The position numbers were made by a program, and so were the translations under genes. From contig CANMAW010000004.1 of the NCBI GenBank assembly GCA_947495915.1, positions 310,001 through 374,000 of the forward strand: DNA of 64,000 bases, written 5' to 3'. Every line of letters begins with the position of its first letter. Position 1 is the stretch's first letter. The stretch comes from Maribacter algarum (ex Lu et al. 2025) (nom. illeg.) (GTDB lineage: Bacteria; Bacteroidota; Bacteroidia; Flavobacteriales; Flavobacteriaceae). The notes beneath the pieces were generated by a model, which ran no database searches, had not been told where the DNA came from, and saw only the letters and a program-made list of their open reading frames with translations. Positions 11,078-30,223 of the stretch are shown piece by piece.

Positions 11078-11113
11078 TTTATGATTAGCATAGTTTTCGT
11101 CAACACAGGTCTA

Positions 11114-12544
11114 TTAATGATTTAGAAAATCTTTGCCCCATTTTTCTAGTAGTTCACTAGCTAATTGAGAGACTAGTTCTTTGTATTCTTCCTTTTCAGC
11201 TAGATTAGCTAATTCCAGCGGGTCAGTCTTATGATCAAACAACATCCGCTCATAGGCAATGCCTTCGTCATTGGTCCATTCCGTATAAAAATAATCTCCC
11301 TTTATCAAGGTCACAGCATCCTTAAATTTGGATACCGCGTAGTTTTTTGCTCGCCCCTTTCCGTTTATAAGCGGAACTAAACTCTCACCTTCTAGTTGGT
11401 TCTCTGGCATCTGTAATCCCGCCAGTTCCACTAGACTAGGATATATATCAACAAACTCTGTAATATCGGTTACATGCCGTCCTTTTGTTTTTCCAGGAAC
11501 TTTGATGAGCAAAGGGCTGCGTAACGAAGTTTCAAAGGTGCAATGTTTGCACCATAATTGGTGTTCTCCCAAGTTCCACCCATGATCTCCCCAAAGTACG
11601 ACGATGGTGTTCTCCGATAAGCCCTCTTTTTCCAGTTCATGTAACAGTTTTCCGATTTGTGCATCGACGAAGCTGACACAGGCGTAATACCCTTGTATCA
11701 ATTGCTTCGCCATTGCATTACTCACCGGCCCTTTTTTGGGGACGTTGGAATAGGTTCTGAGTTCGCCAAAATTATGAAAGGCCTTCAATGGTGTTGTCTT
11801 CGGTTGATGGTAGCTTTCTGGGAGGTTTATATTTTCTATTGGATACATATCCCAATATTTTTTGGGTGCATTAAAGGGCAAATGTGGTTTCATAAATCCC
11901 ATGGCCAAGAAAAAGGGTTTGCCGGTCTTCTTTAATTTTTTAAGGTCTGCTATGCCTTTGGCAGTAATTTTACCATCCAAATATTCGCCTTCATCAACCG
12001 CGGCAGCTTCAAAAGGATTGCCACGCTGCTTCTGGGAAATCAGTTCATGATTTTCTTGGTTAAAATAATTCAAGGTTTCTTCACTGGGTCTCCAGACCTC
12101 ATCCCAATCGCTGGCGCTGTCATCAGGGACATGTAGTACCTTCCCATTGGAAATTGTCGTATACCCGTTGGCCTTGAAAAGTTTAGGCAATGTGATGGTC
12201 TCAGTTGCCTGTTCATCTATGCGTGTGTCGAAGGTTAAAAATCGATTTCTAGTCGGTCTTTTACCTGTCAGAATACTTGCTCTGGATGCTCCACAGGTAG
12301 GTACATTGCAATAGGCCCTATCAAAAACCAAGCTTTGAGAGGCCAATTTATCTAGGTTGGGGGAATGAATGTGGGTCGCGCCATAAAGATTGAGTTCCGG
12401 TCGTAAATCATCAACCGCAATGAACAGAATGTTGGGTTGTCCTTGTTGATGCTTTTCTTCTTTTTCTTCGTGCAGCTCCTTTTGTTCAGCTTTACAGGCC
12501 AGAAGAAAAATACTTGCCAGAACGAAAAGGATTGCGCATCTCAT
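11114..12544 (-). CDS. Sulfatase, iduronate-2-sulfatase-like (S1_7-like), lipoprotein
   Basis: This 476-residue protein has a lipoprotein signal ending FLLACKAEQ. The core starts [20 protein letters not shown]. The formylglycine motif is [17 protein letters not shown], with the C-G-A-S-R form usual in iduronate-2-sulfatase-like enzymes. Further conserved blocks are [38 protein letters not shown] and [14 protein letters not shown]. Ulvan contains iduronate and Rha3S, and S1_7 members in ulvan loci act on sulfated rhamnose, so substrate assignment from the family name alone would be unsafe. The gene follows the fusion sulfatase/GH78 gene by 13 bp in the operon. A periplasmic location is inferred from the lipobox. 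Confidence 0.92.
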
Positions 12545-12557
12545 ATTTATCCAACTT

Positions 12558-15500
12558 CTAAAACGAATTGATTTTTAGTTGAATGGTATGCTTCCCCGGG
12601 GAGAGCCTAATGGACTCAAAAGCAGGGGGTACTTTTTCTCCATTGTGGATGAAATCTTTTCCTTCAAGATTGTTCAAGGAAAATTCAGCCACCATGTTTC
12701 CCGGTATCTCAATTTCATAAGTTTGAAGCCTAGGGCCGTTATGGGTATATTTTCCTTTGATGCTTCCTCTTACCGTGGGTACTTCAATGGTACTCGATTT
12801 TAATTTGCTCATTTGCGGCTTAATAGTGGCTATGCCGAATCCAGGCGTTTTTGGCTTAATTCCCCATAAACCTCTTGGAATTATATTTGCAGGCACGGCG
12901 CCCCAAGCATGGTTCCAATCCAGATTATTCTTGTATTTATTATCCCATGCTTCCAAGGTAATCGTCGAACCGATACGAATCATATTGTACCAGCTTCTGT
13001 CACTGGTATCAATTAGTAAATCCAATGCATAGTCCGCCTCACCTGCATTATAAAGTCCGTCCATTAAAAATTGAGATCCATATACACTACAGGCCATACC
13101 TCTGGATTTTACGAAGTCAACGACGGACTCAAAGTGTTCTTCTGGCACCAGACCAAAAGCCAATGGCATCATGTTGGCGTGCAATGAGGCATGGTCGGTT
13201 CCTATTCCGTCTACATAAACGCCTCGTTCTTTGTCGAACATTTGTTCATTGACCGCTTTTTTAGCTTTTGCAGCTCGCAGCTCAAAGTCCAAAACTTCTT
13301 GTGTTTTACCAAGTATGCGGGCAAACTCGGCCATGATTTTCATATTCTCATAAAAGAAAGCGTTAATTACAGTACTATAAGGTTGGAAAACAAATCCATC
13401 ACGTTCTCCGGGTGTCGTACTCCCGTTAAAATTTGCCGGGGGCCAATCTACAATGTCTGTCAACGGTTTTTTGTATCCATCGGGGAAGCCCAGTTTGCGC
13501 ATAAAATCACGATCCACTTTTGTCGACGTAATTAAACCATCTTCATTGGACAATTCGTAAAGTGATTTATGTTTCAAGGCATCGTAATAGCGTTCAATTA
13601 ATTCGGTATTACCCGTATACATGTAATCCGCATGGATTAATAAAGGCACATGCTGTTGCCATTCGGTGGGCCATGTCGGGTTCTTCATAAAATATTCTAT
13701 GGTACGCCTCCCTATGGCAAACTCCCTATCAGTAGTATAGTGGCTCAATTGATTTAAATACGCATCGGCCTCATAGGGAATGCGCTCTCTGTCTCCATCT
13801 ACATATAGACCATTAAATGTTGTTACTTTGATAGAATATTTACATAGATCCCATACCTGATTCAAAATGTCATTGTCGCTTTCAAAGCTACTTGCGCTGT
13901 CATCCCAATAAGTGTGGAAAGCCAATAGTTGAACATTTTCAGCCGTGAGGGTTTCCTGTGCGCCTTCTATCTCCGCATATCGAAAGGGTACCAATGGTGG
14001 AAAACCATCTGGCAGTGGAATAGCTTGATTGGCCCTAGTATTTCGCTCATTCTTTTGTACCTCTATTTGGTATTTGGTTTGGCCTGGTTTTACATCCACC
14101 TTCAATTCTTGGTATCGGATGTTACTTTTTACTGGTGGAGTTCTATTTACATTTCCTTGCTCATTGATCATTTCCCCAATCCTTATGGTCAAGGTGTGGG
14201 GTATTTTCGCATTGTACGTGAAATCCATCGTAGCAAAAGCGGCCTTTCCAAAATCGATAAAATAAAAATCATCTCTTTTCTCAAACAATTCCGGTTTTAC
14301 TTTGGTAGTTACAAACTTGTTTTCGGTTGATACGATGTAGCTATCGCTCTTTCCGGTAGAAAATGTTTGTGTTTTGGAGTAGTTCACCAAACGATTTTCT
14401 TCATCCCAAATTCTTACCTTCCAGTAATACGTCTTCCCAACTTCTAATGCTTCACCGGCATATTCTACGTCTGTGGATGCATTCGAGGACACGCGCTTGC
14501 TATCCCAAACATCGCCATTATTACTATCAATAATCGCTTGGCTGGACGCTACCAAAATTTGATAGCCCGACTGAAATTTTGAAGCCAAGAGCACTGTCCA
14601 TCCAAACTCGGGTTGTAAATCGAATATTTCGACTTCCCTTTCCGGGGAACGTATCAATTCTACGGTCAAATCGGTTGGGGCTGCTCTATGGGCATCACTG
14701 TTTTTTTCGATCAAGGCATCCGTGGATTTCCTAAACGCATTGAGTTTTTCTACATAAGCCGGATCTTTTGCAAGATTGTTGATTTCCTGTGGATCTTTCT
14801 TTAAGTCATACAGTTCCTCAATGGTTTTATCGTTTACGTACCTGAAGTATTTCCAATCTTTTGTGCGAACCCCTTCGCTGGGCGGAATATTCTCAAAATC
14901 CCAAATATGTTCAATCAATACGGTGTCACGTTTAAAGTCTTTTGTCTTATTACTAGCAATTGGCATTAAACTTTTCCCTTGCCAAGTATTCGGTTGTTCA
15001 ATACCTGCCAAATCTAAAATGGTTGAGGGCACATCAATGTTCAGGGCTAGGGCGTCGCTATCCTTCTGTTTCTTTTGTCTTGGGTCAAAAACGATAAGTG
15101 GCACCCGAACGGAGTTATCATACATTAACCATTTTCCGGCCAATTGTCGTTCTCCCAAAAAGTAGCCATTATCTCCCATAAGGATGAGAACCGTGTTTTT
15201 GTCAATTCCCTTTTTCTTGAGTTCTTGACGTATTTTAGCGATTTCACGGTCAATACCTGAAATCATTCTATAGTATCCTTTTACGCTATGCTGGTATTTC
15301 TCTGGCGTATCATAGCGCCATGTCCATCGTAAACGGTTAAAACCATCACGAACAATCTGAGGTTGTGCCTCAAAATATTTATCCTCGCCAAGGGCAGGGC
15401 CTGGCATTTTCATATTTTGTAATAGGGCATCTGATTCTTCTTGCCAAAAATATTGATCCTCAGCAGGGTCATGGGCATGCGGTGCACTGAAACTCAAGGA

Positions 15501-16076
15501 AAGACAGAAAGGCTCTTTAGTATCCGATTTTGCTATATAATCCAAGGCCTTTTGACCTGTATACCTCGTAAGGTGTACGGTATCTTTGCCCAAAGTTTTA
15601 TAGTAGTACCCTCTTCGGTCATCAAAAGAGTTGTCACGGTCATACGATTCATACACATCAAATTGCTTTTCTAGACCTTCATACCGCACGCCATATTTAC
15701 CATAAAAACCGGTATGGTACCCATTTTCCTTAAGAATTCGCGGGTAGGAATTAACCATGTATTCTTCTCTAATGTTCCCCGTTTGAAAGTTAAAATTATG
15801 CGTCCTTTCATATAGTCCTGTTAATATGCTAGCCCTACTTGCAGCACAAATAGGCGTAGTAACCATGGCATTTTTAAAGTATGTTCCCTCCGAAGCCAGC
15901 TTATCCATTTCTGGAGTGGTAATCAATTTATTACCGACATAACCGATGGCATCGAAGCGTTGGTCATCGGTTAGGATGAAAATGATATTGGGTTTTTGAG
16001 TTTGTTGCTGTGTCGATTTTTGCGCCTTTAAGGGAAGGATGTAAACGAGCAAAAGTGCGACTAATAGGGTTCTCAT
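12558..16076 (-). CDS. Two-domain sulfatase (S1) plus GH78 alpha-L-rhamnosidase
   Basis: The ATG at 16076 starts at a signal peptide ([19 protein letters not shown]). A longer frame begins with a TTG at 16100 and is less likely. The product has 1172 residues. Residues about 25-460 are a complete sulfatase: [20 protein letters not shown], formylglycine motif [19 protein letters not shown], and [17 protein letters not shown]. Residues about 470-1170 are a GH78 rhamnosidase: an Ig-like region with YYWKVRIWD, a beta domain, then the (alpha/alpha)6 barrel with [16 protein letters not shown] (acid residues), [20 protein letters not shown] and a final beta domain. The order and size resemble the GH78/S1_25 enzyme P20 of the Formosa agariphila ulvan locus. 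It would remove Rha3S sulfate and the rhamnose in one polypeptide. It is the first gene of the operon. Confidence 0.92.
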
Positions 16077-16367
16077 TCTTATGATTTTATTATTTGACAA
16101 GTTACTTCAAATTAGCACTTAATTTGAAAAATCATTGATGGTGGTGATTCATTTAAGACAGAACCAAACTTATGTTTTACTGTGTTGGAACCCATCCTGT
16201 GCTGTCCTGAAAAAAATTACCCAATTAATATCCTTTTCTTGTTTTAAGAAACACTATTTACTACCTTTTAATAGTGAGTCTGACAACAGTGACATATTCT
16301 TGTATTAGGTCTTAAGGGACTAATACAGCTTTTTAGTCTTAGTTTGCCAATCTTTTAAAATTTAAAT
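16077..16367. promoter_or_regulatory. Divergent promoter region with regulon motif, site A
   Basis: This region lies between the minus-strand polysaccharide operon and the Gfo/Idh/MocA gene. On the minus strand, TAAGTTTG (16172 to 16165) is an exact TAnnTTTG box for the operon. Nineteen bp upstream sits CAGGACAGCACAGGATGG (16209 to 16192), which takes the place of the usual TTTG. The same 18-bp motif at the same spacing occurs upstream of kduI and rhaEW. On the plus strand, TTAGTTTG just before 16360 is a weaker candidate -7 box for the oxidoreductase gene. No RNA gene was recognised. Confidence 0.6.
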
Positions 16368-17342
16368 ATGGAAATCATAAAATGGGGAATTATAGGATGC
16401 GGAGATGTTGCGGAATTAAAAAGTGGCCCTGCCTTTCAGAAGATACCATCTTCAGAATTACTAGCGGTAATGCGACGTAATATTCATAAAGTAGAAGATT
16501 TTGCATTAAGGCACGAGGTACCCATATGGTCTAACAATGCAGAAGACCTACTAAACAATAAGGAAATAAACGCTCTTTATATCGCAACTCCACCCTCAAC
16601 TCATTTGAAATACGCGCTCGAGGCCTTGCATTCTGGCAAAAATGTCTATTTGGAGAAACCCATGGCTTTGACAGCTAACGAAGCCGGCAGCATTGTCGAG
16701 GCCGTTGCCCAAACGAACTGCAAATTAACGGTTGCCCATTATCGTAGAAGACTTCCAGCCTTTGTTAAAGTTAAAGAGCTGATAGAGCAAAACTCAATAG
16801 GAAAAGTATTATTTGCCGACGTTCAAATACTTCAACCTAAAAAATCAAATATGATTGCCGATACCGAGAAGAATTGGAGACTAAATCCTGAAATATCCGG
16901 GGGTGGCTATTTCTATGACATTGCACCCCATCAAATCGATTTAATGTATCATTATTTTGGCGCGTTTGACAAAATTGAAGGGTTTTCAAGTTCAGAAAAC
17001 AATAAGGGTTTGGTAGAGGATACCGTTAATGGCATCATTAAATTCCAGAATGGAATCCAGTTTCGGGGAATATGGAATTTCACGGCTTTCGACGGCAATA
17101 CGAAAGATAAATGCATTATTTACGGAGAAAAAGGAAGGATATGTTTTTCGTTTTATGGTGGAAGTGTTGTGCTTATCAGCAAACAAGGCAATCAGGTTTT
17201 CAATTTTAAAAATCCGAAGCATATTCAGCAACCCATGATAGCCGCCGTAGTCGATTATTTTTTGGGTAAAGCCGATAATCCCTGTACTGCGAAAGAAGGT
17301 CTATTGATAATGCAAGCCCTAGAAAAACTTAGTGGCAGATGA
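16368..17342 (+). CDS. Gfo/Idh/MocA family NAD(P)-dependent oxidoreductase
   Basis: This 324-residue cytoplasmic protein has the dinucleotide-binding start WGIIGCGDVAELKSGPA, the family EKP motif in GKNVYLEKPMALTANEA (Lys of this motif is usually catalytic), and a C-terminal sheet domain with GGGYFYDIAPHQIDLMYH, in which the His is a usual active-site residue. Family members oxidise or reduce sugars and polyols. It is divergent from the sulfatase operon and convergent with the DUF4861 gene, so it appears to be a single-gene unit. A role in handling a sugar from the polysaccharide is inferred from position. The sequence does not reveal the exact substrate. Confidence 0.88.
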   Translation: MEIIKWGIIGCGDVAELKSGPAFQKIPSSELLAVMRRNIHKVEDFALRHEVPIWSNNAEDLLNNKEINALYIATPPSTHLKYALEALHSGKNVYLEKPMALTANEAGSIVEAVAQTNCKLTVAHYRRRLPAFVKVKELIEQNSIGKVLFADVQILQPKKSNMIADTEKNWRLNPEISGGGYFYDIAPHQIDLMYHYFGAFDKIEGFSSSENNKGLVEDTVNGIIKFQNGIQFRGIWNFTAFDGNTKDKCIIYGEKGRICFSFYGGSVVLISKQGNQVFNFKNPKHIQQPMIAAVVDYFLGKADNPCTAKEGLLIMQALEKLSGR

Positions 17343-17357
17343 ACAGCCCATTATTCG

Positions 17358-17390
17358 TTATTAAAACCCAAATTGTCTGGGTAATAAAAA
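17358..17390 (+). terminator. Weak terminator-like hairpin between convergent genes
   Basis: The stem ACCCA/TGGGT, extended by TTATT/AATAA with a bulge, lies 16 bases after the oxidoreductase stop. The T-tract is poor on the plus strand, so the call is tentative. Confidence 0.3.
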
Positions 17391-17466
17391 GCTTAATTTT
17401 CACAAAAGAAAAATAAGTACAAATTCTATCTTAATCTTCTTATACTCTCATTTAAAGAGCTAGGAA

Positions 17467-18645
17467 TTATTTAAACTCTACGACCAAGGGATTTTTTAAG
17501 CTTTGGGCATATCGATTTAAATAGGCATCCCATTCCTCTTTACTCTTGAACTGACCACTCTTTTTCCAACCAAAACCCGCATAATATGTGGCCTTATCGT
17601 TTTTTGTTTTGAGATGCACAAAAAGATTGCTTTCGTCCTTTCTATCGGTTACAAAGTGGTCATGACCTATCATTCCATTTTCAGGTACTACTATACCTGT
17701 ACCAAGTTCTGAATCTTTGTGAGGTTGCCAATAACTGACCCAACCAAGTTCTTGATTTACAACGATTTTTCCATCCTTTTCATGAAGCGTAAGCCCCGCA
17801 GAGATGGTATCGGTTCCCTTTACCGAAATCTCGAATTTGGACAGGTTGCTTCCGTAGTCCAACGAAATCTTTTTCTCTTCGGATATAATATTCCCAGCGG
17901 CATCCCAATTGGCATAGGCCAAGATGAAGCTCGTTCTAATCGGGCCCGTAGCCAATGTTTTCCATGAGGTAAAATTCTTGGAAATGAAATAGGTCGTATC
18001 CACTTTCTTGGCAATGCCCCCTACCCCACGACTTATTCCTACATGAAAATTATCAAGGCCTTCGCCATCGTCCTTATGATAACTGCCATCTGTTTCCAGT
18101 TCTTTTCTATACCACTTATTGATAATAGGATACGCTACACGTTTTAACCATGCATCAATACCGCTTGAAAGTGTACCGCCTTTAACCCCATCTTCTTTCA
18201 TTTTTTGGGCGGTAGGGCCATAGGTCCTAAACGCAACGCGATTGTTTTCCCAGGCGTAGTCGTCGGTACGTTCCGGAACAAATCTGGAGTAACAGGCCGA
18301 AACAGTATCTCTCGACTTGCTGCTTTTCGCAAAATGCACTTCAAAAATTTTTTCGCCATTGGCCGGCATTTCAGGTTGAAACAAGAGTTCGTCCATTTCA
18401 CCGTCACCGTCGAAATCTATTTGCTGAGAAACCACCTCCTGTTTGGTTTGAGCATCCTTCAAAATAATATCTTCCATAGCATCGGAAAGCTCAAGTAAGG
18501 ACAAATCCACGGAAACGGTTTCAAAAGCACGTTCAAAATCCATAGAGTTTTTCACAACAATTTGCTTATTGTTTTCCACTTTTTCCCCACAGGATAAAAG
18601 GAAGATTAAAGTACAAATCGCTACATTAAGGTTTCGCTTTTTCAT
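17467..18645 (-). CDS. DUF4861 family lipoprotein
   Basis: The start was set at the ATG at 18645. A longer frame to 18723 runs into kduD and adds a non-signal-like N-terminus. The resulting 392 residues begin MKKRNLNVAICTLIFLLSCG, a clear lipoprotein signal. The body holds beta-strand-rich blocks such as DFDGDGEMDELLFQPE, HKDDGEGLDNFHVG and LGWVSYWQPHKDSELGTG. I recognise it as the DUF4861 family, which recurs next to kduI/kduD in Bacteroidota pectin and uronate loci, but no biochemical role is established that I can name. It starts 10 bp after kduD ends, so the three genes form one operon. It is probably a periplasmic sugar-binding or sugar-processing protein, by inference only. Confidence 0.75.
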   Translation of the reverse strand: MKKRNLNVAICTLIFLLSCGEKVENNKQIVVKNSMDFERAFETVSVDLSLLELSDAMEDIILKDAQTKQEVVSQQIDFDGDGEMDELLFQPEMPANGEKIFEVHFAKSSKSRDTVSACYSRFVPERTDDYAWENNRVAFRTYGPTAQKMKEDGVKGGTLSSGIDAWLKRVAYPIINKWYRKELETDGSYHKDDGEGLDNFHVGISRGVGGIAKKVDTTYFISKNFTSWKTLATGPIRTSFILAYANWDAAGNIISEEKKISLDYGSNLSKFEISVKGTDTISAGLTLHEKDGKIVVNQELGWVSYWQPHKDSELGTGIVVPENGMIGHDHFVTDRKDESNLFVHLKTKNDKATYYAGFGWKKSGQFKSKEEWDAYLNRYAQSLKNPLVVEFK

Positions 18646-18655
18646 AACAAAAAAA

Positions 18656-19450
18656 TTAATCTTCATTGGAAGGCTTTCCAATCGTTGCCAATATTCCTCC
18701 ATCCACATAAAGCACGTGACCATTTACGAAATCACTTGCTTTAGAGGAAAGGAAAATGGCCGCCCCGGCCAAATCATCAGGGTTGCCCCATTTGGCAGCC
18801 GGAGTACGGTTAACGATAAATTCATTAAACGGATGGCCATCGACCCTTATGGGCGCGGTTTGCGAAGTTGCAAAATATCCTGGCCCGATACCGTTGATCT
18901 GTATATTGTGTTTCGCCCATTCCGTAGCCATATTCTGGGTCAACATTTTGAGTCCGCCTTTTGCTGCGGCATACGCCCCAACCGTATTTCTGCCCAGTTC
19001 GCTCATCATAGAGCAAATATTGATGATCTTTCCTTGTTTACGGGCGATCATGGTTTTGACTACATGTTTTGACATTATAAAAGGACTCACCAAATCGATG
19101 TCGATGACTTCTTTAAAGTCGGCAACTTCCATCTGCTCTAAGGGTGTTCTTTTTATGATACCAGCATTGTTCACAAGAATATCAATAGGCCCAACCTCGC
19201 TTTGTATCTTACCGATGGCATCAACAACTTGGGTTTCGTCGGCTACGTTAAATTTGTAGCGGAACGCTTTTATACCTTCCCTTTCATAGTGCTTGACAGC
19301 ATCATCAATTTTTTGCTGTGACGAATTTCCATTTACAATTAGTGTCGCACCAGCTTTACCCAATCCTTTGGCCATGGCCATACCAAGCCCATGCGTGCTT
19401 CCGGTGACCAATGCAATTTTCCCGCTCAAATCAAATAGTTCAACACTCAT
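18656..19450 (-). CDS. kduD: 2-dehydro-3-deoxy-D-gluconate 5-dehydrogenase (KduD), SDR family
   Basis: This 264-residue classical short-chain dehydrogenase has the cofactor loop TGSTHGLGMAMAKGLG, the NNAG motif (ILVNNAGIIKRTPLE), the catalytic YxxxK (GAYAAAKGGLKML) and the end FVNGHVLYVDGG. It interconverts 2,5-diketo-3-deoxygluconate and 2-keto-3-deoxygluconate with NAD(P)H, the second step of 4-deoxy-5-keto-uronate catabolism in the cytoplasm. The name rests on the SDR motifs plus tight linkage to kduI, which starts the operon 4 bp upstream. Unsaturated uronates released by a lyase or dehydratase in the neighbouring operon would feed it. The following KDG kinase and aldolase are not in the window. 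Confidence 0.9.
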   Translation of the reverse strand: MSVELFDLSGKIALVTGSTHGLGMAMAKGLGKAGATLIVNGNSSQQKIDDAVKHYEREGIKAFRYKFNVADETQVVDAIGKIQSEVGPIDILVNNAGIIKRTPLEQMEVADFKEVIDIDLVSPFIMSKHVVKTMIARKQGKIINICSMMSELGRNTVGAYAAAKGGLKMLTQNMATEWAKHNIQINGIGPGYFATSQTAPIRVDGHPFNEFIVNRTPAAKWGNPDDLAGAAIFLSSKASDFVNGHVLYVDGGILATIGKPSNED

Positions 19451-19454
19451 AGGC

Positions 19455-20294
19455 CTATTTTAATTCAGTTATTTTGGCAACATCCATATCGTTATAGTCC
19501 AAATTTTCACCGGCCATGCCCCAGATAAATGTATAGTTCGAAGTACCCGAACCACAGTGGATCGACCAAGGTGGAGAAACTACCGCTTGGTGGTTTTGCA
19601 TCCAGATATGCCGCGTTTCTTGCGGTTGCCCCATAAAATGGCATACTGACTGCCCTTCAGGTACATCCAAATAAAAATAAACTTCCATTCTACGGTCATG
19701 AACATGGGCGGGCATGGTGTTCCAAACACTTCCGGTCTTTAATTCTGTCATTCCCATCTGTAGTTGGCAGGTGGTCACAACTCCGCCTATAATCATTTGA
19801 CTGACCGTACGGTGGTTTGCCGTTTCCAAAGAACCCAGCTCTATTTTATTGGCCTGTTCAAGGCTTACCTTTTTAGTAGGATATGAAGTATGTGCCGGTG
19901 CGGAATTTAAATAGAATTTTGCAGGTTTACTGGTATCGTCACTTTTGAAAATTACTTCTTGGGCGCCGCTACCGATGTACAGAGCATCCTTATGTCCTAG
20001 GTCATAAGTTGTTCCATCTACTTCAACGGAACCGCTATCCCCAACATTGATAATTCCCAATTCTCGTCTTTCTAAAAAGAACTCGGCCTTTAACGGGTCA
20101 ATGGTTTCTAATTTCAACGGGCTTTCAGGAACTACTGAACCTGCAATATACCGATCATAATGCGTGTAGATTAGATTGATTTTTCCTTTTTGCATAAGAT
20201 TATCAATGAGGAATTCATTGCGCAGTTCGGTGGTGTCATATTTTTTTACTGCCTCTGGACTTGAGGCATATCTTGTCTCGTATGATGTTGCCAT
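19455..20294 (-). CDS. kduI: 5-dehydro-4-deoxy-D-glucuronate isomerase (KduI)
   Basis: At 279 residues it has the usual length of KduI. The metal-binding cupin site is visible as MPAHVHDRRMEVYFYLDVP (two His and a Glu) with a later SIHCGSGTSNYTFIWGMAGEN, which supplies the last His and ends in the conserved GEN. It isomerises 4-deoxy-L-threo-5-hexosulose uronate to 2,5-diketo-3-deoxygluconate in the cytoplasm, just before KduD. The N-terminus MATSYETRYASSPEAVKKYD is full length. It is the first gene of the kduI-kduD-DUF4861 operon and has a TACTTTTA -7 box and the shared 18-bp motif upstream, divergent from the phosphatase gene. Confidence 0.96.
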   Translation of the reverse strand: MATSYETRYASSPEAVKKYDTTELRNEFLIDNLMQKGKINLIYTHYDRYIAGSVVPESPLKLETIDPLKAEFFLERRELGIINVGDSGSVEVDGTTYDLGHKDALYIGSGAQEVIFKSDDTSKPAKFYLNSAPAHTSYPTKKVSLEQANKIELGSLETANHRTVSQMIIGGVVTTCQLQMGMTELKTGSVWNTMPAHVHDRRMEVYFYLDVPEGQSVCHFMGQPQETRHIWMQNHQAVVSPPWSIHCGSGTSNYTFIWGMAGENLDYNDMDVAKITELK

Positions 20295-20383
20295 ATCATT
20301 TTTATATTTAGTATTTATATTTTTTGAGATAGTTTACTTAACGGATTTAATTCTCTTTTAGGTAATCTTACATCGTTGATCTT

Positions 20384-20450
20384 TAAAAGTAATTGGCCCT
20401 TGTAAAATGTCTATCCTGTGCTATCTTGTATTACTTCTTTGACAGGATAG
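20384..20450 (-). promoter_or_regulatory. kduI promoter and regulon motif, site B, with a second inverted half-site
   Basis: Toward kduI the order is CAAGATAGCACAGGATAG (20428 to 20411), 19 bp, then TACTTTTA (20391 to 20384), which matches TAnnTTTG at all but the last base. An inverted copy of the core, ACAGGATAG, lies at 20442-20450 on the plus strand and faces the divergent phosphatase gene. The two cores form a spaced inverted repeat. The same arrangement is seen at sites A and C. Confidence 0.6.
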
Positions 20451-20524
20451 TGCATGACAATTTAATTGAAAGTTTCAGATATTTTAGACCTTTGAGAATA
20501 CCTAGTTAAAAAACTTGAATCAAT

Positions 20525-21436
20525 ATGAAACTTGCCGCTATAGATATCGGGTCGAATGCCATAAGACTTCAGGTCGTAAAGGTTTACGAAGATGAGGACT
20601 TAGTCAGTTTTAAGAATCTACAATTATTACGATTTCCGTTGCGATTGGGGCATGATGTGTTTTCGCGCGGGGAAATTTCCCCCTTGACCAAGGAGAAATT
20701 CATAAAACTGATGAGCATCTTTAAACATCTGATCGACCTTTATGAAGTAGAGGATTATTTTGCAGTCGCCACATCGGCGATGCGAGAGGCAGTTAATGGA
20801 AAAGAGATAAGCCAACATATTCTGGAAGAGGTAGGCTTAAAGATAAATATCATAACCGGCAAGAAGGAAGCCAGCATATTGAATAAGGCGATAAGGCCTA
20901 CTTTAAAAAATCGCAGATATGTACATATTGATGTTGGGGGTGGCAGTACCGAGCTAAATTTAATTGAAGGCGGTCAATTGGTGCAGGGGCGTTCCTTTAA
21001 AATAGGATCCGTGCGTGAATTGACCTCTAAAGAACGGAGTGCGGTTTTTACTTCAATGAAGAAATGGATTAACTCCACGTCATTTCGCAAATCAAAAAAT
21101 ATCGTTGGAATAGGCACAGGTGGTAACATCAACCGGCTTTATGGACTTGCCAACAAAGCTTCGAACATGGCCATATCCTATGCTGAATTAAAGGCATTAC
21201 GTGCCTATGTGAAAGCGTTCACCTATGAAGAGCGAATGTCAATACTAAAGATGAATCCCGATAGGGCCGATGTCATTGTTCCAGCATCTGAAATATATTT
21301 AAGAGTACTCAAAGAAATGGGCAGTGATCAAATCTTGGTACCTAAAGTTGGGCTAAAAGATGGTCTGGCTTATGAACTTTATGAACGAACAACTCGTAAA
21401 AATCTTGATAAAATTGAATATCTAGGTTACTTATAA
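20525..21436 (+). CDS. Ppx/GppA-type exopolyphosphatase or related phosphatase
   Basis: This 303-residue protein has the ASKHA phosphatase fold: AAIDIGSNAIRLQVVKV for phosphate loop 1, ATSAMREAVNG, and HIDVGGGSTELNLIEGG for the second phosphate-binding loop. It matches the short single-domain Ppx/GppA proteins that lack the C-terminal HD part. The family hydrolyses polyphosphate or (p)ppGpp. Such genes usually sit in core regions, yet here one is flanked on both sides by uronate and rhamnose catabolic genes. It is divergent from kduI, with an inverted half-site of the regulon motif facing it. Its substrate is not predictable from the sequence. Confidence 0.85.
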   Translation: MKLAAIDIGSNAIRLQVVKVYEDEDLVSFKNLQLLRFPLRLGHDVFSRGEISPLTKEKFIKLMSIFKHLIDLYEVEDYFAVATSAMREAVNGKEISQHILEEVGLKINIITGKKEASILNKAIRPTLKNRRYVHIDVGGGSTELNLIEGGQLVQGRSFKIGSVRELTSKERSAVFTSMKKWINSTSFRKSKNIVGIGTGGNINRLYGLANKASNMAISYAELKALRAYVKAFTYEERMSILKMNPDRADVIVPASEIYLRVLKEMGSDQILVPKVGLKDGLAYELYERTTRKNLDKIEYLGYL

Positions 21437-21517
21437 ATATCTGGTATAACTGAACAATATATTACGCACAAGTCGGTATTGGCATTAATCTGTGTCACTT
21501 ATTAGAAGATGTTTTGA

Positions 21518-22564
21518 TTATATCGAATTTCTGTCTATAAAATTAAAAGGGTTTTTGACTTTCCCCTCCTCTTTCTCCATAATCATGCGAGCGGCAGTTT
21601 CGCCCATTGCTTTGAAATCGGTTGAGATACAAGTGATGCCCAATAATTGCTTTAAAGGGGTATCATTGTATGATATTACCCCAATATCACTGCCCAATTC
21701 AAATTCTTGATTACGTATCTGATTGACCAAGTTGACAAGATCCGATTCGGTAATAATAATAAATAAATCTCCCTTTTTCAGAATCATATCATCGTAAATT
21801 TCATCAAGCACTTCAAAATCAATGTCGTGCTCAACACAAAATTTGCGAAACCCATGTAATATTCTCTTGGGATAAGGATAGACGGAATTTTCGGGATAAG
21901 CCATAAACAACTTTTCATATTTCGAAATCTTGGCAAATCCTTCTTGCAGCGAATTATAGATGTCGTTCTCAAAATCCTGGTAGATTTCAACGAATGCACC
22001 CTTTATTTCGGCAACTGGATTATCCATAATTACAAGCTTGTTCTTTGGTATCCCATCCAGTGCTTTAACTACCTCAGGGGTAAAACTTACGTGCTTTAAT
22101 TTTTCGGTTTTAAAATGAGGCATGATAACATAATAGTCATAGGCATTCTTGTTTTTTTCCAAAAGATTCAAAAAGAGTTCTTCCTCACAATGGTATATAT
22201 GAAGATCCGTATGTGATGTGCTGCCAATACTATTGACGAAAGAATTATATATCCGCATCTTGTACGAACTCAACTTATTTATCAGGAATAAAATATTGAC
22301 CTTGGAAATCAGTTTAGTTCTTGCAATGTAATATCCTTTTCCCCTGATGGATACGATAACTTTTCGCTCTTTTAATATATTATATGCCTTTTCGACCGTA
22401 TCCCTTGAAAGAAGATACTCCTCACTGAACATGTTTATCGATGGAATCTTGTCATCCATCTTAACGTTCCCTGCAGAAATATTATAAATGATAGCATCCA
22501 CGATCTGTCTGTACTTTGGTACTCGGGAATTCTCATCGATTTTGATGTATTTAAACATTTCCAT
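21518..22564 (-). CDS. GntR-family regulator with LacI-type sugar-binding domain
   Basis: The ATG at 22564 (or 22558) was chosen over the TTG at 22603, because the winged-helix domain begins at once as MFKYIKIDENSRVPKYRQI. The product has about 348 residues. Residues about 5-80 form the GntR helix-turn-helix (PSINMFSEEYLLSRDTVEKAYNIL, ending SIRGKGYYI). The remainder is a periplasmic-binding-protein-like effector domain (KVNILFLINKLSSYKMRIYNSF; GVISYNDTPLKQLLGITCIS; AARMIMEKEEG). It is divergent from the rhamnose operon with 179 bp between them. This is the only transcription factor in the polysaccharide region and is the best candidate to bind the 18-bp motif found at three promoters. Rhamnose or rhamnulose as effector is inferred. 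Confidence 0.88.
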   Translation of the reverse strand: MEMFKYIKIDENSRVPKYRQIVDAIIYNISAGNVKMDDKIPSINMFSEEYLLSRDTVEKAYNILKERKVIVSIRGKGYYIARTKLISKVNILFLINKLSSYKMRIYNSFVNSIGSTSHTDLHIYHCEEELFLNLLEKNKNAYDYYVIMPHFKTEKLKHVSFTPEVVKALDGIPKNKLVIMDNPVAEIKGAFVEIYQDFENDIYNSLQEGFAKISKYEKLFMAYPENSVYPYPKRILHGFRKFCVEHDIDFEVLDEIYDDMILKKGDLFIIITESDLVNLVNQIRNQEFELGSDIGVISYNDTPLKQLLGITCISTDFKAMGETAARMIMEKEEGKVKNPFNFIDRNSI

Positions 22565-22674
22565 GATAGGATTATTAGTTTCTTGACACTCAATTCTCTT
22601 CAAACAAATAAAAGGATTTAAGCGAACATTTGTGCAAAGCTGGTGAAATTATTTTTCTATATTGAAAACTTGTG

Positions 22675-22719
22675 CGGTACAGTACAGGATACAAAGATTT
22701 CTAACATCTTTTATTTTCG
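22675..22719 (+). promoter_or_regulatory. rha operon promoter and regulon motif, site C
   Basis: The motif CGGTACAGTACAGGATAC (22675-22692) is followed by 19 bp and then TATTTTCG (22712-22719), one base off the TAnnTTTG consensus. The operon start codon lies 24 bp further on. No TTTG is present at the usual -33 position; the motif occupies it. This is the layout also seen at sites A and B. Confidence 0.6.
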
Positions 22720-22743: not shown

Positions 22744-24849
22744 ATGAAAGATACTATACAGCAATTTAAATACGTCGATTACCTCTGGGACGAAAAGAAG
22801 GCAGCAAGTCTTGGTGATAATCAAGTAGAACTTTTTCTTTACCGTTCAAATATTCTAGGAGCAGATCTTAGAATAACGAACTATGGTGGTGGCAATACGA
22901 GCTGCAAGACTATTGAAAAAGACCCACTGACAAATGCCGATGTCGAGGTCATGTGGATCAAAGGATCTGGTGGTGACATCGGCACTTTGACTAAAGCAGG
23001 TATTGCAGGGCTTTACACCGATAGACTGAGAAACCTTAAAAATGTGTACGGTGGTTTAGAAGATGAAGACCGCATGGTGAGCTTGTTCAATCATTGTATT
23101 TATGATTTAGATAGCCGGGCACCTTCGATAGATACGCCTTTGCACGGCTTATTACCATTCAAGCATATAGACCACTTACATCCCGATGCCCTTATCGCAG
23201 TTGCTGCCGCAAAAAATAGTGAAAAAGTGACCCATGAAATTTGGGGCGATACCATGGGGTGGGTGCCTTGGCAGCGTCCTGGTTTCGACTTGGGCCTTCA
23301 ATTAGAAAAATGCCTTAACGACAACCCAGGAATTCGAGGAATCGTTTTGGGAAGCCACGGACTTTTTACTTGGGGAGATACGTCATATGAATGTTATATG
23401 AATAGTCTCGAAGTCATCGAAATGGCTTCGGATTACATCGAAAATAAAATCAAGGAAAACGGTAGCGTCTTCGGGGGGCAGAAAGTTGACAGCTTACCCG
23501 CTGAAGACCGTCGAGACAAAGCGGCACAATTGATGCCAATGTTGCGGGGCCTCTGCTCCTCACAGAACAGAATGATCGGTCATTTCAATGATAGCGATGT
23601 AGTGTTGGAATACATCAATAGCAATGATCTGGAACGTTTGGCACCAATGGGCACATCATGTCCCGACCATTTTTTGAGGACAAAAATTCAGCCGTTGGTA
23701 CTTCAGTTGGACGCCGATGAAGATCTTTCCAAAACGGAGGCCATTCTTGTTAAACTGAAACCTGCTTTTGAGGAGTATCGAAAAGAATATCAAGAATACT
23801 ATGATAAACATAAGCGTGACAATAGCCCAGCGGTAAGAGATGCCAATCCGGTCATTATCATATATCCAGGTGTAGGGATGTTCAGCTTTGCCAAAAACAA
23901 GCAGACAGCCCGCGTGGCCAACGAATTTTACGTCAATGCCATCAACGTAATGCGAGGCGCAGAGGCCATTACCGAATACACTTCATTACCCAGACAAGAG
24001 GCTTTCGATATCGAATATTGGTTATTGGAAGAGGCAAAATTACAGCGCATGCCCAAAGAGAAACCTTTGTCTAGAAAAGTAGCGGTTGTTACCGGGGCTG
24101 GCGGAGGTATCGGCAAGGCGATTGCCGACAAATTGGCCGAAGAAGGTGCAAATGTGGTTCTTACTGACATAGCAGAGAATAGGCTTCAGGATGGGGTGGC
24201 AACCTATGCCAGGGATACAGCCAGTTATGCGGTTTGCGACGTTACAAAAAGTGATTCAATCGCCGAGGCCTATAAAAAAGCATGTTTGGAATTCGGTGGC
24301 GTAGATATTGTTGTACATAGTGCCGGTCTGGCCATTTCCAAACCACTGGAAGAGACCACTGAAAAAGATTGGGACATTCTTCAAAACGTATTGGTAAAAG
24401 GACAGTTTGAATTGGCCAAACAGGCAGTTACGATCATGCGACAACAAGATTTGGGTGGCGATTTTATCAGTATCGCAAGTAAAAACGGTTTGGTCTCAGG
24501 ACCTAATAATGTAGCGTACGGAACTGCAAAAGCGGCCCAACAGCACATGGCCCGATTGCTGGCCGCTGAGTTGGGTGGTGATAAAGTACGAGTGAATACC
24601 GTCAACCCGGATGGGGTAATCGTGGGCAGCAAGATTTGGGAAGGCGATTGGGCGGAAGGCCGTGCCAAGGCTTATGGAATATCAGTTGATGAACTTCCTG
24701 CTCACTATGCAAAGCGTAATCTGTTAAACGAAATCATTTATCCTGAGGATATTGCCAACGGGGTCTTTGCCTGTGTCGGCATATTGGATAAAACTACGGG
24801 AAATATTATCAATGTTGATGGCGGAATGGCCAACGCGTTTGTACGATAG
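22744..24849 (+). CDS. rhaEW: Bifunctional rhamnulose-1-phosphate aldolase / L-lactaldehyde dehydrogenase
   Basis: This 701-residue fusion combines an N-terminal class II aldolase/adducin-type domain (residues about 20-420) with a C-terminal short-chain dehydrogenase (about 435-700). The aldolase part shows ITNYGGGNTSCKT, MWIKGSGGDIGTL, the metal-binding region PLHGLLPFKHIDHLHPDAL and GIVLGSHGLFTWGD. The SDR part shows VTGAGGGIGKAIADKLAEEG, AYGTAKAAQQHM (YxxxK) and NIINVDGGMANAF. The aldolase splits L-rhamnulose-1-phosphate into dihydroxyacetone phosphate and L-lactaldehyde. The dehydrogenase oxidises the aldehyde to L-lactate. It is the first gene of the operon, directly behind the site C promoter. 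Confidence 0.93.
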   Translation: MKDTIQQFKYVDYLWDEKKAASLGDNQVELFLYRSNILGADLRITNYGGGNTSCKTIEKDPLTNADVEVMWIKGSGGDIGTLTKAGIAGLYTDRLRNLKNVYGGLEDEDRMVSLFNHCIYDLDSRAPSIDTPLHGLLPFKHIDHLHPDALIAVAAAKNSEKVTHEIWGDTMGWVPWQRPGFDLGLQLEKCLNDNPGIRGIVLGSHGLFTWGDTSYECYMNSLEVIEMASDYIENKIKENGSVFGGQKVDSLPAEDRRDKAAQLMPMLRGLCSSQNRMIGHFNDSDVVLEYINSNDLERLAPMGTSCPDHFLRTKIQPLVLQLDADEDLSKTEAILVKLKPAFEEYRKEYQEYYDKHKRDNSPAVRDANPVIIIYPGVGMFSFAKNKQTARVANEFYVNAINVMRGAEAITEYTSLPRQEAFDIEYWLLEEAKLQRMPKEKPLSRKVAVVTGAGGGIGKAIADKLAEEGANVVLTDIAENRLQDGVATYARDTASYAVCDVTKSDSIAEAYKKACLEFGGVDIVVHSAGLAISKPLEETTEKDWDILQNVLVKGQFELAKQAVTIMRQQDLGGDFISIASKNGLVSGPNNVAYGTAKAAQQHMARLLAAELGGDKVRVNTVNPDGVIVGSKIWEGDWAEGRAKAYGISVDELPAHYAKRNLLNEIIYPEDIANGVFACVGILDKTTGNIINVDGGMANAFVR

Positions 24850-24933: not shown

Positions 24934-26214
24934 ATGAGAATAGATAAAAGTCAACTTGACGATATCAATAAAAAAAATGAAGTTCATCACCGCGAACACT
25001 TCGATTTTTTGGCTGACCGTCTTGCCAAAAATGGTAATGATGTTGAGGGTATTCTGAAAAAACTGTCCGATTTTCAGGTGGCTATACCGAGCTGGGCGTT
25101 GGGTGCGGGAGGAACGCGATTTGGGCGCTTCGGATTTCAGGGTGAGCCTTCAAATCTAGAACAGAAAATAGATGATGTAGGTATTTTGCATACACTAACT
25201 CAGACTGCCGGAGCAATCTCATTGCATATTCCATGGGATGTGCCAAAAGATTATGAGGCAATCAAAGAGTTAGCAAATTCACATAATATCATCTTTGACG
25301 CTGTTAATTCCAATACTTTTCAAGATCAAAAAAACGCAAAAGAAAGCTACAAGTTCGGATCGTTGAGTAACACCAGTAAAGCAGTTCGTGAACAGGCCAT
25401 TGAACACAATACAGATGTAATAAAAATCGGTGACAAACTAGGTTCAAAAAGCTTGACCGTCTGGTTGGCCGACGGTTCCAATTTCCCAGGACAGTCTAAC
25501 TTTCAGAACGCGCTTCAGTATACCGAAGATAGCCTAAAGGATATCTACAAAGCTCTACCCGATGACTGGAAACTTTTAATCGAGTATAAACCGTACGAGC
25601 CTAATTTCTATAGCACTGTAATCCAAGATTGGGGCACATCTTTTATGTTGGCCAATGCCTGTGGCGACAAAGCATATACCTTAGTCGATTTGGGGCATCA
25701 TCTGCCCAATACCAATATAGAACAGATTGTTTCTACTTTGATGCTAAAAGGAAAGTTGGGCGGTTTCCATTTCAATGACAGTAAATATGGTGATGATGAT
25801 CTCACTGTAGGGAGTGTTAAACCTTATGCGCTTTTCTTGATTTTCAATGCCTTGGTCTATGGCATGGAAAACAATACTCAGAACCCATACCCTGCATGGA
25901 TGATCGATGCCAGTCACAATATCAAAGATCCTTTGGAAGATTTGATTCAATCTTTAGAAGCCATTCAGGAAGCCTACGCAAAAGCCCTTCTAGTTGATCA
26001 AAGCCTTTTGAAAAAAGCACAGGAAAACCATGACGTAGTCAAATGCCAAGAAATTCTTCAAGATGCCTATCGAACCGATGTTAGACCATTTCTCGAAAAA
26101 GCAAGATTACACCGTGGCGGGGCAATAAGTCCCATCAATGCCTATCGTTCTTTAAAGGTGAGGCAAAGACTAATTGATGAAAGAGGGGCCGATTCGGTAG
26201 CTACAGGACTATAA
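24934..26214 (+). CDS. rhaI: L-rhamnose isomerase, RhaI type
   Basis: This 426-residue TIM-barrel sugar isomerase matches the Pseudomonas-type RhaI in length and order, not the RhaA type. Visible active-site strands include SLTVWLADGSNFPGQ, LIEYKPYEPNFYSTV (metal-ligand Glu), LVDLGHHLPNTNIEQ (Asp/His) and GGFHFNDSKYGDDDLTVGS (His and Asp ligands). It interconverts L-rhamnose and L-rhamnulose in the cytoplasm, normally with a divalent metal ion. It is second in the operon, followed at 10 bp by the kinase gene. The gene name rests on family shape plus the complete pathway around it. Confidence 0.92.
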   Translation: MRIDKSQLDDINKKNEVHHREHFDFLADRLAKNGNDVEGILKKLSDFQVAIPSWALGAGGTRFGRFGFQGEPSNLEQKIDDVGILHTLTQTAGAISLHIPWDVPKDYEAIKELANSHNIIFDAVNSNTFQDQKNAKESYKFGSLSNTSKAVREQAIEHNTDVIKIGDKLGSKSLTVWLADGSNFPGQSNFQNALQYTEDSLKDIYKALPDDWKLLIEYKPYEPNFYSTVIQDWGTSFMLANACGDKAYTLVDLGHHLPNTNIEQIVSTLMLKGKLGGFHFNDSKYGDDDLTVGSVKPYALFLIFNALVYGMENNTQNPYPAWMIDASHNIKDPLEDLIQSLEAIQEAYAKALLVDQSLLKKAQENHDVVKCQEILQDAYRTDVRPFLEKARLHRGGAISPINAYRSLKVRQRLIDERGADSVATGL

Positions 26215-26224
26215 TTTAATTACA

Positions 26225-27595
26225 ATGAAAACCAAAGTAACAGCCGTTTTCGACATTGGCAGAACCAACAAAAAGTTCTTTCTTTTTGATAGGGATTTCC
26301 ATGAAGTCTATCGCGAATACATCCGATTTGACGAAATAGAGGACGAAGATGGGTATCCAACCGAAAATCTGGAAGCTTTGGCAAACTGGGCAAAAGAAGT
26401 ATTCGATAGAATGTTGAACGCTGAAGAATATGATATTGAGGCCCTAAATTTCTCTTGTTATGGGGCCAGTTTAGTACACATTGACCAAGACGGTAAAGCA
26501 CTCACTCCGCTCTATAATTACATGAAGCCTTTAACAGATGAGGTTTATAATTCCTTCTATACCAAATATGGTCCTGAAAATGAAATTTCAAGAGTGACCG
26601 GCTCTCCAAAATTAGGGATGTTGAATACGGGCATGCACTTATATTGGCTTAAATATGCCAAGCCAGAAGTTTTTAAAAAAATAAAATATTCATTACATCT
26701 TCCGCAATACCTCAGTTACCTATTCACTGGTGTTCCTGTTAGTGAATACTCAAGCATAGGTTGCCATACACTACTTTGGGATTATGAAAAGAAAGACTAT
26801 CATTCATGGGTACATGAAGAAGGGTTACAGGGAAAATTGCCACCTATCGTTTCTTCCAGGGAAACAATCCCTGTAAAATATATGGGGAAAACGATTCAAA
26901 TGGGAGCCGGTATTCACGATAGCTCTTCAGCCTTACTACCTTATATCAGAAGCATTTCCAAATCATTTTTGTTGGTTTCGACCGGTACTTGGAGTATATC
27001 TATTAACCCCTTCAACAAGGGAATGCTTACATTGAACGATATTGAGAGCGACTCGCTCTTTAATATGAGAATAGATGGCAGCCCCGTCAAGGTTTCCAGA
27101 TTGTTCCTTGGCAATGAATACAAGCTTCAGGTCAAGGCCCTGTCCGAACGTTATAATGTTTCGGAGGAATATCATAAAACCGTGAAGTTTGATCAGGATA
27201 CTTTTTTTGAGATCAACAAAGACTTCGTTCACATGTTCAAATGGTCGAGTATTTCTTCCGAGGATATGCCAAGAGAAACAAAAATTCCATATGATAAATT
27301 CGAGCATGCCTATCATCAACTGATGTTGGAACTTGTCTTGTTGCAAGAAAAAAGTATAAGAGCGGCCATTGGCAATGAAAAAATAGAAAGACTTTATGTA
27401 GATGGGGGATTTAGCGACAATGAAGTCTACATTCAACTACTTTCCCAGTACTTAATAAATATGAAACTTAGAACCACGGATTCTTCCTTAGGTTCGGCTT
27501 TAGGTGCGGCCATTGTGATTTCAGATGTAACTTTGGAATCCAAATTCTTAAAAAAGAACTATGCCGTAAAAAAACACAAGTCATTAATCTTATAA
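26225..27595 (+). CDS. FGGY-family carbohydrate kinase, probable L-rhamnulokinase
   Basis: This 456-residue cytoplasmic kinase starts with the ATPase phosphate-1 loop AVFDIGRTNKKFFLFD. It carries a LSTGTWSISINPFN segment (written here as SFLLVSTGTWSISIN) and LYVDGGFSDNEVYIQLL near the end, both typical of FGGY kinases of the rhamnulokinase type. It phosphorylates L-rhamnulose to rhamnulose-1-phosphate, the substrate of the adjacent aldolase. It sits 10 bp after rhaI and 12 bp before the lactate dehydrogenase gene. Assignment to rhamnulose rather than another ketose depends on the operon. Confidence 0.88.
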   Translation: MKTKVTAVFDIGRTNKKFFLFDRDFHEVYREYIRFDEIEDEDGYPTENLEALANWAKEVFDRMLNAEEYDIEALNFSCYGASLVHIDQDGKALTPLYNYMKPLTDEVYNSFYTKYGPENEISRVTGSPKLGMLNTGMHLYWLKYAKPEVFKKIKYSLHLPQYLSYLFTGVPVSEYSSIGCHTLLWDYEKKDYHSWVHEEGLQGKLPPIVSSRETIPVKYMGKTIQMGAGIHDSSSALLPYIRSISKSFLLVSTGTWSISINPFNKGMLTLNDIESDSLFNMRIDGSPVKVSRLFLGNEYKLQVKALSERYNVSEEYHKTVKFDQDTFFEINKDFVHMFKWSSISSEDMPRETKIPYDKFEHAYHQLMLELVLLQEKSIRAAIGNEKIERLYVDGGFSDNEVYIQLLSQYLINMKLRTTDSSLGSALGAAIVISDVTLESKFLKKNYAVKKHKSLIL

Positions 27596-27607
27596 TAAAC
27601 TATCCAA

Positions 27608-28759: not shown

Positions 28760-28771
28760 AACCAACTTAAA

Positions 28772-30184: not shown

Positions 30185-30223
30185 AAAGCTTAAGGCTTAA
30201 TCAGGTCGATTTAAAACATATAA

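Follow-up and report, generated by a model that had tools for sequence, protein, structure and literature searches.

A promoter motif at a fixed distance from the -7 box defines a polysaccharide-locus regulon in Maribacter algarum and its relatives, with a GntR/LacI-type protein as candidate regulator

The stretch of Maribacter algarum DNA analysed here, called the window in the following, comprises 64,000 nucleotides (contig C4, positions 310001-374000) of a genome of 4.17 Mb and contains an 18-bp promoter motif together with the gene of a candidate regulator. Positions without a contig are those of the window. A sequence-only reading had described three 18-mers upstream of three operons, and all three are exact: site A, CAGGACAGCACAGGATGG (16192..16209, minus strand), lies upstream of a sulfatase-GH78 gene, site B, CAAGATAGCACAGGATAG (20411..20428, minus strand), upstream of kduI, and site C, CGGTACAGTACAGGATAC (22675..22692, plus strand), upstream of rhaEW. 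The gap reported in that reading is likewise confirmed, as the boxes TAAGTTTG (16165..16172, minus strand), TACTTTTA (20384..20391, minus strand) and TATTTTCG (22712..22719, plus strand) follow exactly 19 bp downstream of sites A, B and C, respectively. A further site that had not been reported, B', CAGGATAGTGCATGACAA (20443..20460, plus strand), adjoins site B in opposite orientation; it is weaker, has its own box TATTTTAG at 19 bp (20480-20487, plus strand) and faces a Ppx/GppA-type gene. Divergent sites resembling B' are also found in the loci of two relatives (L035 and L045). Allowing up to three mismatches, the full motif matches four times in the window compared with a mean of 1.0 in shuffled sequence, where four matches were reached in 2 of 100 shuffles.

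The first gene behind site A (12558..16100, minus strand) encodes a sulfatase fused to an α-L-rhamnosidase of GH78 type (PF00884, PF16347, PF25788 and PF17389); its open reading frame (ORF) has a TTG start at 16100, and the protein scanned began at 16076. Behind site B lies kduI (19455-20294, minus strand), and site C precedes rhaEW (22744..24849, plus strand), the gene of a bifunctional rhamnulose-1-phosphate aldolase/dehydrogenase with matches above cut-off to NF006191, NF006189 and TIGR02632 and with the domains PF00596 and PF00106. RhaW is described as a lactaldehyde dehydrogenase (PMC3870299). The gene faced by site B' (20525..21436, plus strand) belongs to the Ppx/GppA family according to PF02541, its NCBIfam matches being below cut-off, and is possibly a member of the regulon through this site. 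A Ppx/GppA-type gene is an unexpected candidate member of a sugar regulon.

Between the Ppx/GppA-type gene and site C the minus strand encodes the candidate regulator (21518..22564, 348 amino acids), with a GntR winged-helix DNA-binding domain and a LacI-like effector domain. The N-terminal GntR winged helix-turn-helix matches PF00392 with 38.6 bits (cut-off 27) and the C-terminal LacI/GalR-like effector domain matches PF13377 (Peripla_BP_3) with 30.7 bits (cut-off 26.5). At E≤1e-5 Pfam yields these two domains only and thus no aminotransferase-like domain. LacI-family structures are the best matches of the predicted model (mean pLDDT 89.4), and the DNA-binding domain of AraR (4egy, E 5.5e-6) ranks fourth in the list of PDB sequence matches.

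In the whole home genome a degenerate 16-bp core of the motif has four exact matches, all within C4:278886-332691, and four matches with one mismatch, three of them in the same interval; a box with at least five of six positions lies at 19 bp in seven of these eight. The one-mismatch match at C3:371186 was rejected, as no box at 19 bp could be read from the sequence. With up to two mismatches the core alone gives 111 matches compared with 87 for a backward-pattern control, which is near background, and the core-only scan was therefore dropped in favor of a composite pattern that joins the motif, the 19-bp gap and the box and allows up to three mismatches. This composite matches 13 times in the genome (backward-pattern control: 4). 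Eleven of these matches, all followed after exactly 19 bp by a TAnnTTTG-like box, fall within a single polysaccharide locus of 54 kb (C4:278885-332719). Since the core-only count is close to its control and the composite is concentrated in one locus, specificity lies in motif plus spacing, the motif alone being unspecific. The genome scan proposed in the sequence-only reading thus revealed no scatter over unrelated genes; its argument against chance holds, and its single regulon for three operons is borne out and larger, with about 11 promoters.

A search matrix, not including the box, was built from ten home sites. Two core matches inside the locus, 284712 (minus strand) and 307683 (plus strand, intragenic), were omitted on inspection, and three sites with two mismatches, 301853, 302224 and 307079, were included for the genes they face; because of this choice the composite scan and the count over 80 loci given below are less selected figures than the ten-site count.

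Among named genomes 127 relatives of the regulator were confirmed, and the best 80 were kept for locus analysis, including those of Zobellia, Maribacter, Arenibacter, Algibacter, Polaribacter, Flavobacterium and Lewinella. In 78 of the 80 loci an intergenic site of at least 16 bits is accompanied by a box with at least four of six positions exactly 19 bp away. At the stricter threshold of at least 20 bits there are 139 matches, from which 7 in called ORFs and 10 with a further copy downstream were set aside, and in the remaining 122 terminal intergenic sites a box with at least five of six positions is found at exactly 19 bp in 117 (at least four of six in 120), while the other spacings average 1.06 per 122 sites. 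The box with at least five of six positions is also present in six of the seven matches set aside within called ORFs, and, lowering the threshold to at least 18 bits, in 137 of 147 sites. The rhaEW promoter carries a site in 52 of the 62 loci with rhaEW by automatic count. Six of the ten misses (L036, L055, L070, L077, L099 and L114) do have a site with at least a 4/6 box at 19 bp, L088 has a site as well, and L083 has a weak one (13.4 bits) with a 6/6 box. No site was detected before rhaEW in L072 and L087; one of 19.2 bits, with a 4/6 box, precedes the adjoining gene, which encodes RhaT in L072 and is similar in appearance in L087.

In a second family within the order, whose regulators are about 55-58% identical, 14 of 18 stretches contain a variant of the site (CGGGAT), followed at 19 bp by a 6/6 box; of the others, L131 carries a different site and a 4/6 box, L160 has a 13.8-bit site, and no site was detected within the stretches L134 and L135. 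Conservation in related loci, by which the sequence-only reading had asked its motif to be judged, therefore extends out to Lewinella and into this second family. The regulon is real, locus-specific and widely conserved, and its promoter architecture is rigid.

The anatomy of the site was derived from 149 distinct sites, kept for a box with at least four of six positions. Their logo reads CAGKAYAGTA directly followed by CAGGATRS, 19 weakly conserved bases and TAnnTTTG. The box itself (T 100%, A 97%, two free positions, T 91%, T 100%, T 66%, G 73%) comes from sites selected for it and agrees with the sigma-A TAnnTTTG box of flavobacteria, which in Flavobacterium psychrophilum is reported as a -7 box at -12 to -5 (PMC9723704). 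Setting the box at this position places the motif at about -49 to -32. Within the 22-mer site the self-match amounts to 0.59 at a shift of 10 and 0.53 at a shift of 5, no other shift from 3 to 14 exceeds 0.30, and the two half-sites are 0.67-0.70 identical. In 19 of 184 intergenic matches a further copy is present 10 or 20 bp downstream. From the letters of these sites, a 10-bp direct repeat (CRGKAYAGYA, then CAGGATRS) describes the motif better than a palindrome does. One of the 149 sites has a TTG 16-24 bp above the box, compared with 23 of 89 other exact TAnnTTTG promoters of the same loci. This is in line with the earlier suggestion that the motif takes the place of the -33 TTTG; as the motif's own letters fill that place, the absence of TTG is in part their doing and shows the position of the motif rather than adding independent proof.

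Two more GntR/LacI proteins are encoded in the home genome, 37% and 32% identical to the candidate regulator. They are located at C9:36146-37159 (with L164 and L166-L169) and C1:104409-105419 (with L165 and L172-L193), both beside SusC-like genes. Each adjoins a 10-bp direct repeat of its own sequence just downstream of a -7 box. For the second paralogue this is approximately CAGACTAGAC twice; on visual reading it is clear at home and in L167, L168 and L169, weak in L170 and not seen in L171, the sixth locus. For the third paralogue the repeat, GTAGCATAGT followed by GTATCATAG, is found at 24 sites in 21 of 22 loci, with none in L192; in 23 of these sites the box ends 3-10 bp upstream, and in one a box lies 19 bp downstream. 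Judging from this placement, the two paralogues possibly repress two other loci. The 10-bp direct repeat looks like a trait of the GntR/LacI family, and the comparison suggests that the rhamnose branch differs from the paralogues by upstream placement of its repeat at one exact distance.

Taken together, the motif is rather probably the operator of an L-rhamnose/uronate sulfated-polysaccharide regulon to which the GntR/LacI hybrid of 21518-22564 binds and which it activates in place of a -33 element. The regulator would bind the 10-bp direct repeat at about -49 to -32, replacing the -33 element, and would contact the sigma-A polymerase at the adjoining TAnnTTTG box; a rhamnose-derived signal in the LacI-like domain would switch it on as an activator. 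The sequence-only reading had named this protein the obvious candidate to bind the motif, and its domain architecture has been confirmed; the neighbor is likely the binder, with the binding itself being predicted. It had also left activation and repression side by side, and here activation in place of the -33 element is the likely mode, since a fixed upstream site suits an activator touching the polymerase, whereas the sites of the paralogues lie after the -7 box; this is the chief argument in favor of activation, and an indirect one. More tentatively, with the balance still slightly on the side of doubt, the GntR/LacI hybrids of Bacteroidota may each have their own 10-bp repeat, which after the -7 box would serve repression and 19 bp before the box activation, and the rhamnose activators may have arisen by moving the operator and would act at the phylum's unusual sigma-A promoter.

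Several observations weigh against this interpretation. The best palindrome of the motif reaches 0.50 over 8 pairs, so that on single sites the margin in favor of a direct repeat is modest. A -33 TTG is present in only 23 of the 89 generic promoters, and its absence at the sites therefore weighs little. Near paralogues of 45-46% identity there is no such site in three of four loci, and the fourth has a 15-bit match without a proper box. The spacing of the third paralogue is also fairly tight (4 bp in 14 of 23 sites, 5 bp in 5 of 23), and since this paralogue is placed like a repressor, tight spacing alone is no proof of activation. Finally, the GntR/LacI hybrid already described, AraR, and the GntR regulator AusR from a flavobacterium are both reported to be repressors. 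These last points would fit the same regulator acting at the same sites as a repressor, which covers the -33 region, where it could block sigma region 4, and is released by an inducer as in AraR or AusR; AusR, moreover, is reported to act on single, double or triple operator copies, resembling the tandem arrays found here. Such a repressor is nevertheless unlikely. Repression needs less than the one exact spacing seen in 117 of 122 sites, and the paralogue placed like a repressor has its repeat past the box instead, 3 to 10 bp away. As the motif fills the -33 place, a promoter released from repression would be expected to be weak.

Whether the motif is read by this regulator at all bears on a second alternative, namely that an unlinked regulator, for example of AraC type or a hybrid two-component protein, binds the motif, with the GntR/LacI gene next to the rhamnose operon as a bystander. 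In a survey of 395 genomes of the order (regulator at E≤1e-80, composite site with at most one mismatch) the site is found in 58 genomes and the regulator in 54; the site is present in all 54 genomes with the regulator compared with 4 of the 341 others, and the backward-pattern control matches 4 of the 395. Three of the site-positive genomes lacking the regulator (G022, G125 and G150) have no relative at E≤1e-15. The rhaEW gene occurs in 55 genomes, which are the 54 with the regulator and G388. Because rhaEW tracks the regulator almost perfectly, co-occurrence alone cannot separate binder from target. In G388 itself the regulator is 40% identical, and its one composite site lies at a distance of about 50 kb from rhaEW. 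In two individual loci, L091 and L099, the regulator has AraC-type genes in its vicinity. Bacteroides rhamnose genes are, moreover, described as being under AraC-type activators with direct-repeat motifs of 21-bp period.

On the other hand, the neighboring genes do not point to a second regulator. Of the gene clusters found in at least 5 of the 80 loci, 33 in number, 20 match genes of the home locus and 13 do not, and no regulator is among these 13 according to Pfam on one representative each; unlinked regulators were not searched for. The regulator is present in 79 of the 80 loci, rhaEW in 62, rhaI in 60 and rhaK in 58. The 10-bp direct repeats adjoining the two paralogues, which make the repeat look like a mark of the GntR/LacI family, also speak against a bystander, and an unlinked binder is accordingly improbable, clearly more so than repression by the neighbor. 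The notion that an alternative sigma factor directly recognises the motif as a promoter element can practically be dismissed. The rigid spacing and asymmetry of the motif do resemble a -35/-10 pair, but the box downstream is that of sigma-A, TAnnTTTG, and tandem copies at 10-bp steps are unexpected for a -35 element.

The G388 locus is of interest in its own right. At G388:C10:442780-447669 (L197) the gene of the 40%-identical GntR/LacI regulator adjoins rhaT-rhaEW, and a related repeat lies upstream of rhaT. Among the five loci found for this regulator the repeat AAGGACTGTACAGGACAG is present in three and a variant in G388 itself; no repeat of this type is seen in L199, which does not align there. 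About 20 bp past the repeat a 4/6 box can be read by eye. The regulator of G388 type possibly replaces the rhamnose regulator, and its repeat neither proves nor refutes binding.

Among known systems, AraR of Bacillus subtilis shares the GntR winged helix and the LacI-like sugar-binding domain (PMC4494728) as well as a sugar regulon with several operators. It differs in being a repressor with a palindromic 16-bp operator (PMC4218819), compared with the 10-bp direct repeat at a fixed distance upstream of the -7 box. The present regulator is thus best read, on the strength of its domains and sites, as having an AraR-like architecture without an AraR-like palindromic operator, and the geometry argues against an AraR-like repressor action. 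Direct-repeat operators (CTGGACYTAA for TauR) and activation of catabolic genes are reported for the MocR-type regulators GabR and TauR, which have a GntR DNA-binding domain (PMC5320631). MocR proteins carry an aminotransferase-like domain in place of the LacI-like domain found here, and the repeat distance is two or three helical turns in characterised members (PMC5320631) and one in the present motif. Of the two MocR traits the direct repeats would be present here, and activation is predicted. FarR, NagQ and NanR are further GntR proteins reported to bind direct repeats (PMC4494728). AusR of Zobellia galactanivorans is likewise a GntR-family protein from a flavobacterium that regulates a polysaccharide locus, its operators occurring in single to triple copies, but it is reported to repress alginate genes (PMC7874173, PMC8286568). 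The catalogued RhaR/RhaS regulators likewise control L-rhamnose catabolic genes, including rhaEW in several lineages (PMC3870299). They are assigned to the AraC, DeoR and LacI families (PMC3870299), whereas the protein described here combines a GntR DNA-binding domain with a LacI-like effector domain. The word GntR does not appear in the main text of that comparative study (PMC3870299), and no description of this regulator or motif was found among the titles and abstract beginnings searched, a coverage that leaves most subscription papers outside.

The analysis thereby proposes a regulator, the operator it would use and the way it would act, both for this seaweed-polysaccharide locus and for the rhamnose operon found in many flavobacteria, in a phylum whose promoters are unlike the textbook ones. 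Owing to the exact spacing the activation model lends itself to direct testing, and the contrast with the paralogues supplies a rule by which further polysaccharide loci can be interpreted.

The sites stand before genes of the 54-kb locus, which contains three GH78-type rhamnosidase genes (one fused to the sulfatase), two GH106-family genes, GH88- and GH3-family enzymes, five further sulfatase genes, kduI, a KduD-like gene, rhaEW with isomerase and kinase genes, and a SusC/SusD pair preceded by two sites. One of its proteins has a weak heparinase II/III-like match (25.3 bits, cut-off 24); no ulvan lyase could be identified with certainty among the locus proteins, and for two of them, of 639 and 470 amino acids, no family was found. 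Based on the rhamnosidases, sulfatases, the GH88-family enzyme, kduI and the weak heparinase II/III-like match, we infer that the substrate of the locus is a sulfated polysaccharide containing rhamnose and uronate, such as ulvan.

Within the window the genes following those directly behind the sites are assigned to operons by direction and spacing in the case of site A, where two further sulfatases (11114-12544 and 9602-11077, together 9602..12544, minus strand) would belong to the unit. The putative kduI operon continues on the minus strand with a short-chain dehydrogenase (SDR) of the gluconate 5-dehydrogenase/KduD kind (18656-19450) and a DUF4861 protein (17467-18645 as scanned). The genes after rhaEW (24934..31639, all on the plus strand) are presumably members of its operon as well, namely an L-rhamnose isomerase-like gene (24934-26214, named after an NCBIfam match below cut-off), an FGGY kinase (26225-27595), a lactate-dehydrogenase-like FMN enzyme (27608-28759, NCBIfam match below cut-off), the 470-residue protein (28772-30184, without Pfam or NCBIfam match) and, as the last one, a sulfatase (30224-31639). 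Relatives of the 470-residue protein occur in 45 of the 80 loci. Outside the window but within the polysaccharide locus, at C4:279084-283393 (L032:9084-13393), a planctomycete-type cytochrome c gene (PSCyt1/PSCyt2/PSD1) and a DUF1501 gene stand behind a motif site. In some relatives a fructose-1,6-bisphosphatase gene adjoins the regulator (L068, L074 and L075, with an ORF of 335 amino acids, and L109, with one of 303 amino acids), as recognised by Pfam in L075 and L109 and by the likeness of the first residues in L068 and L074.

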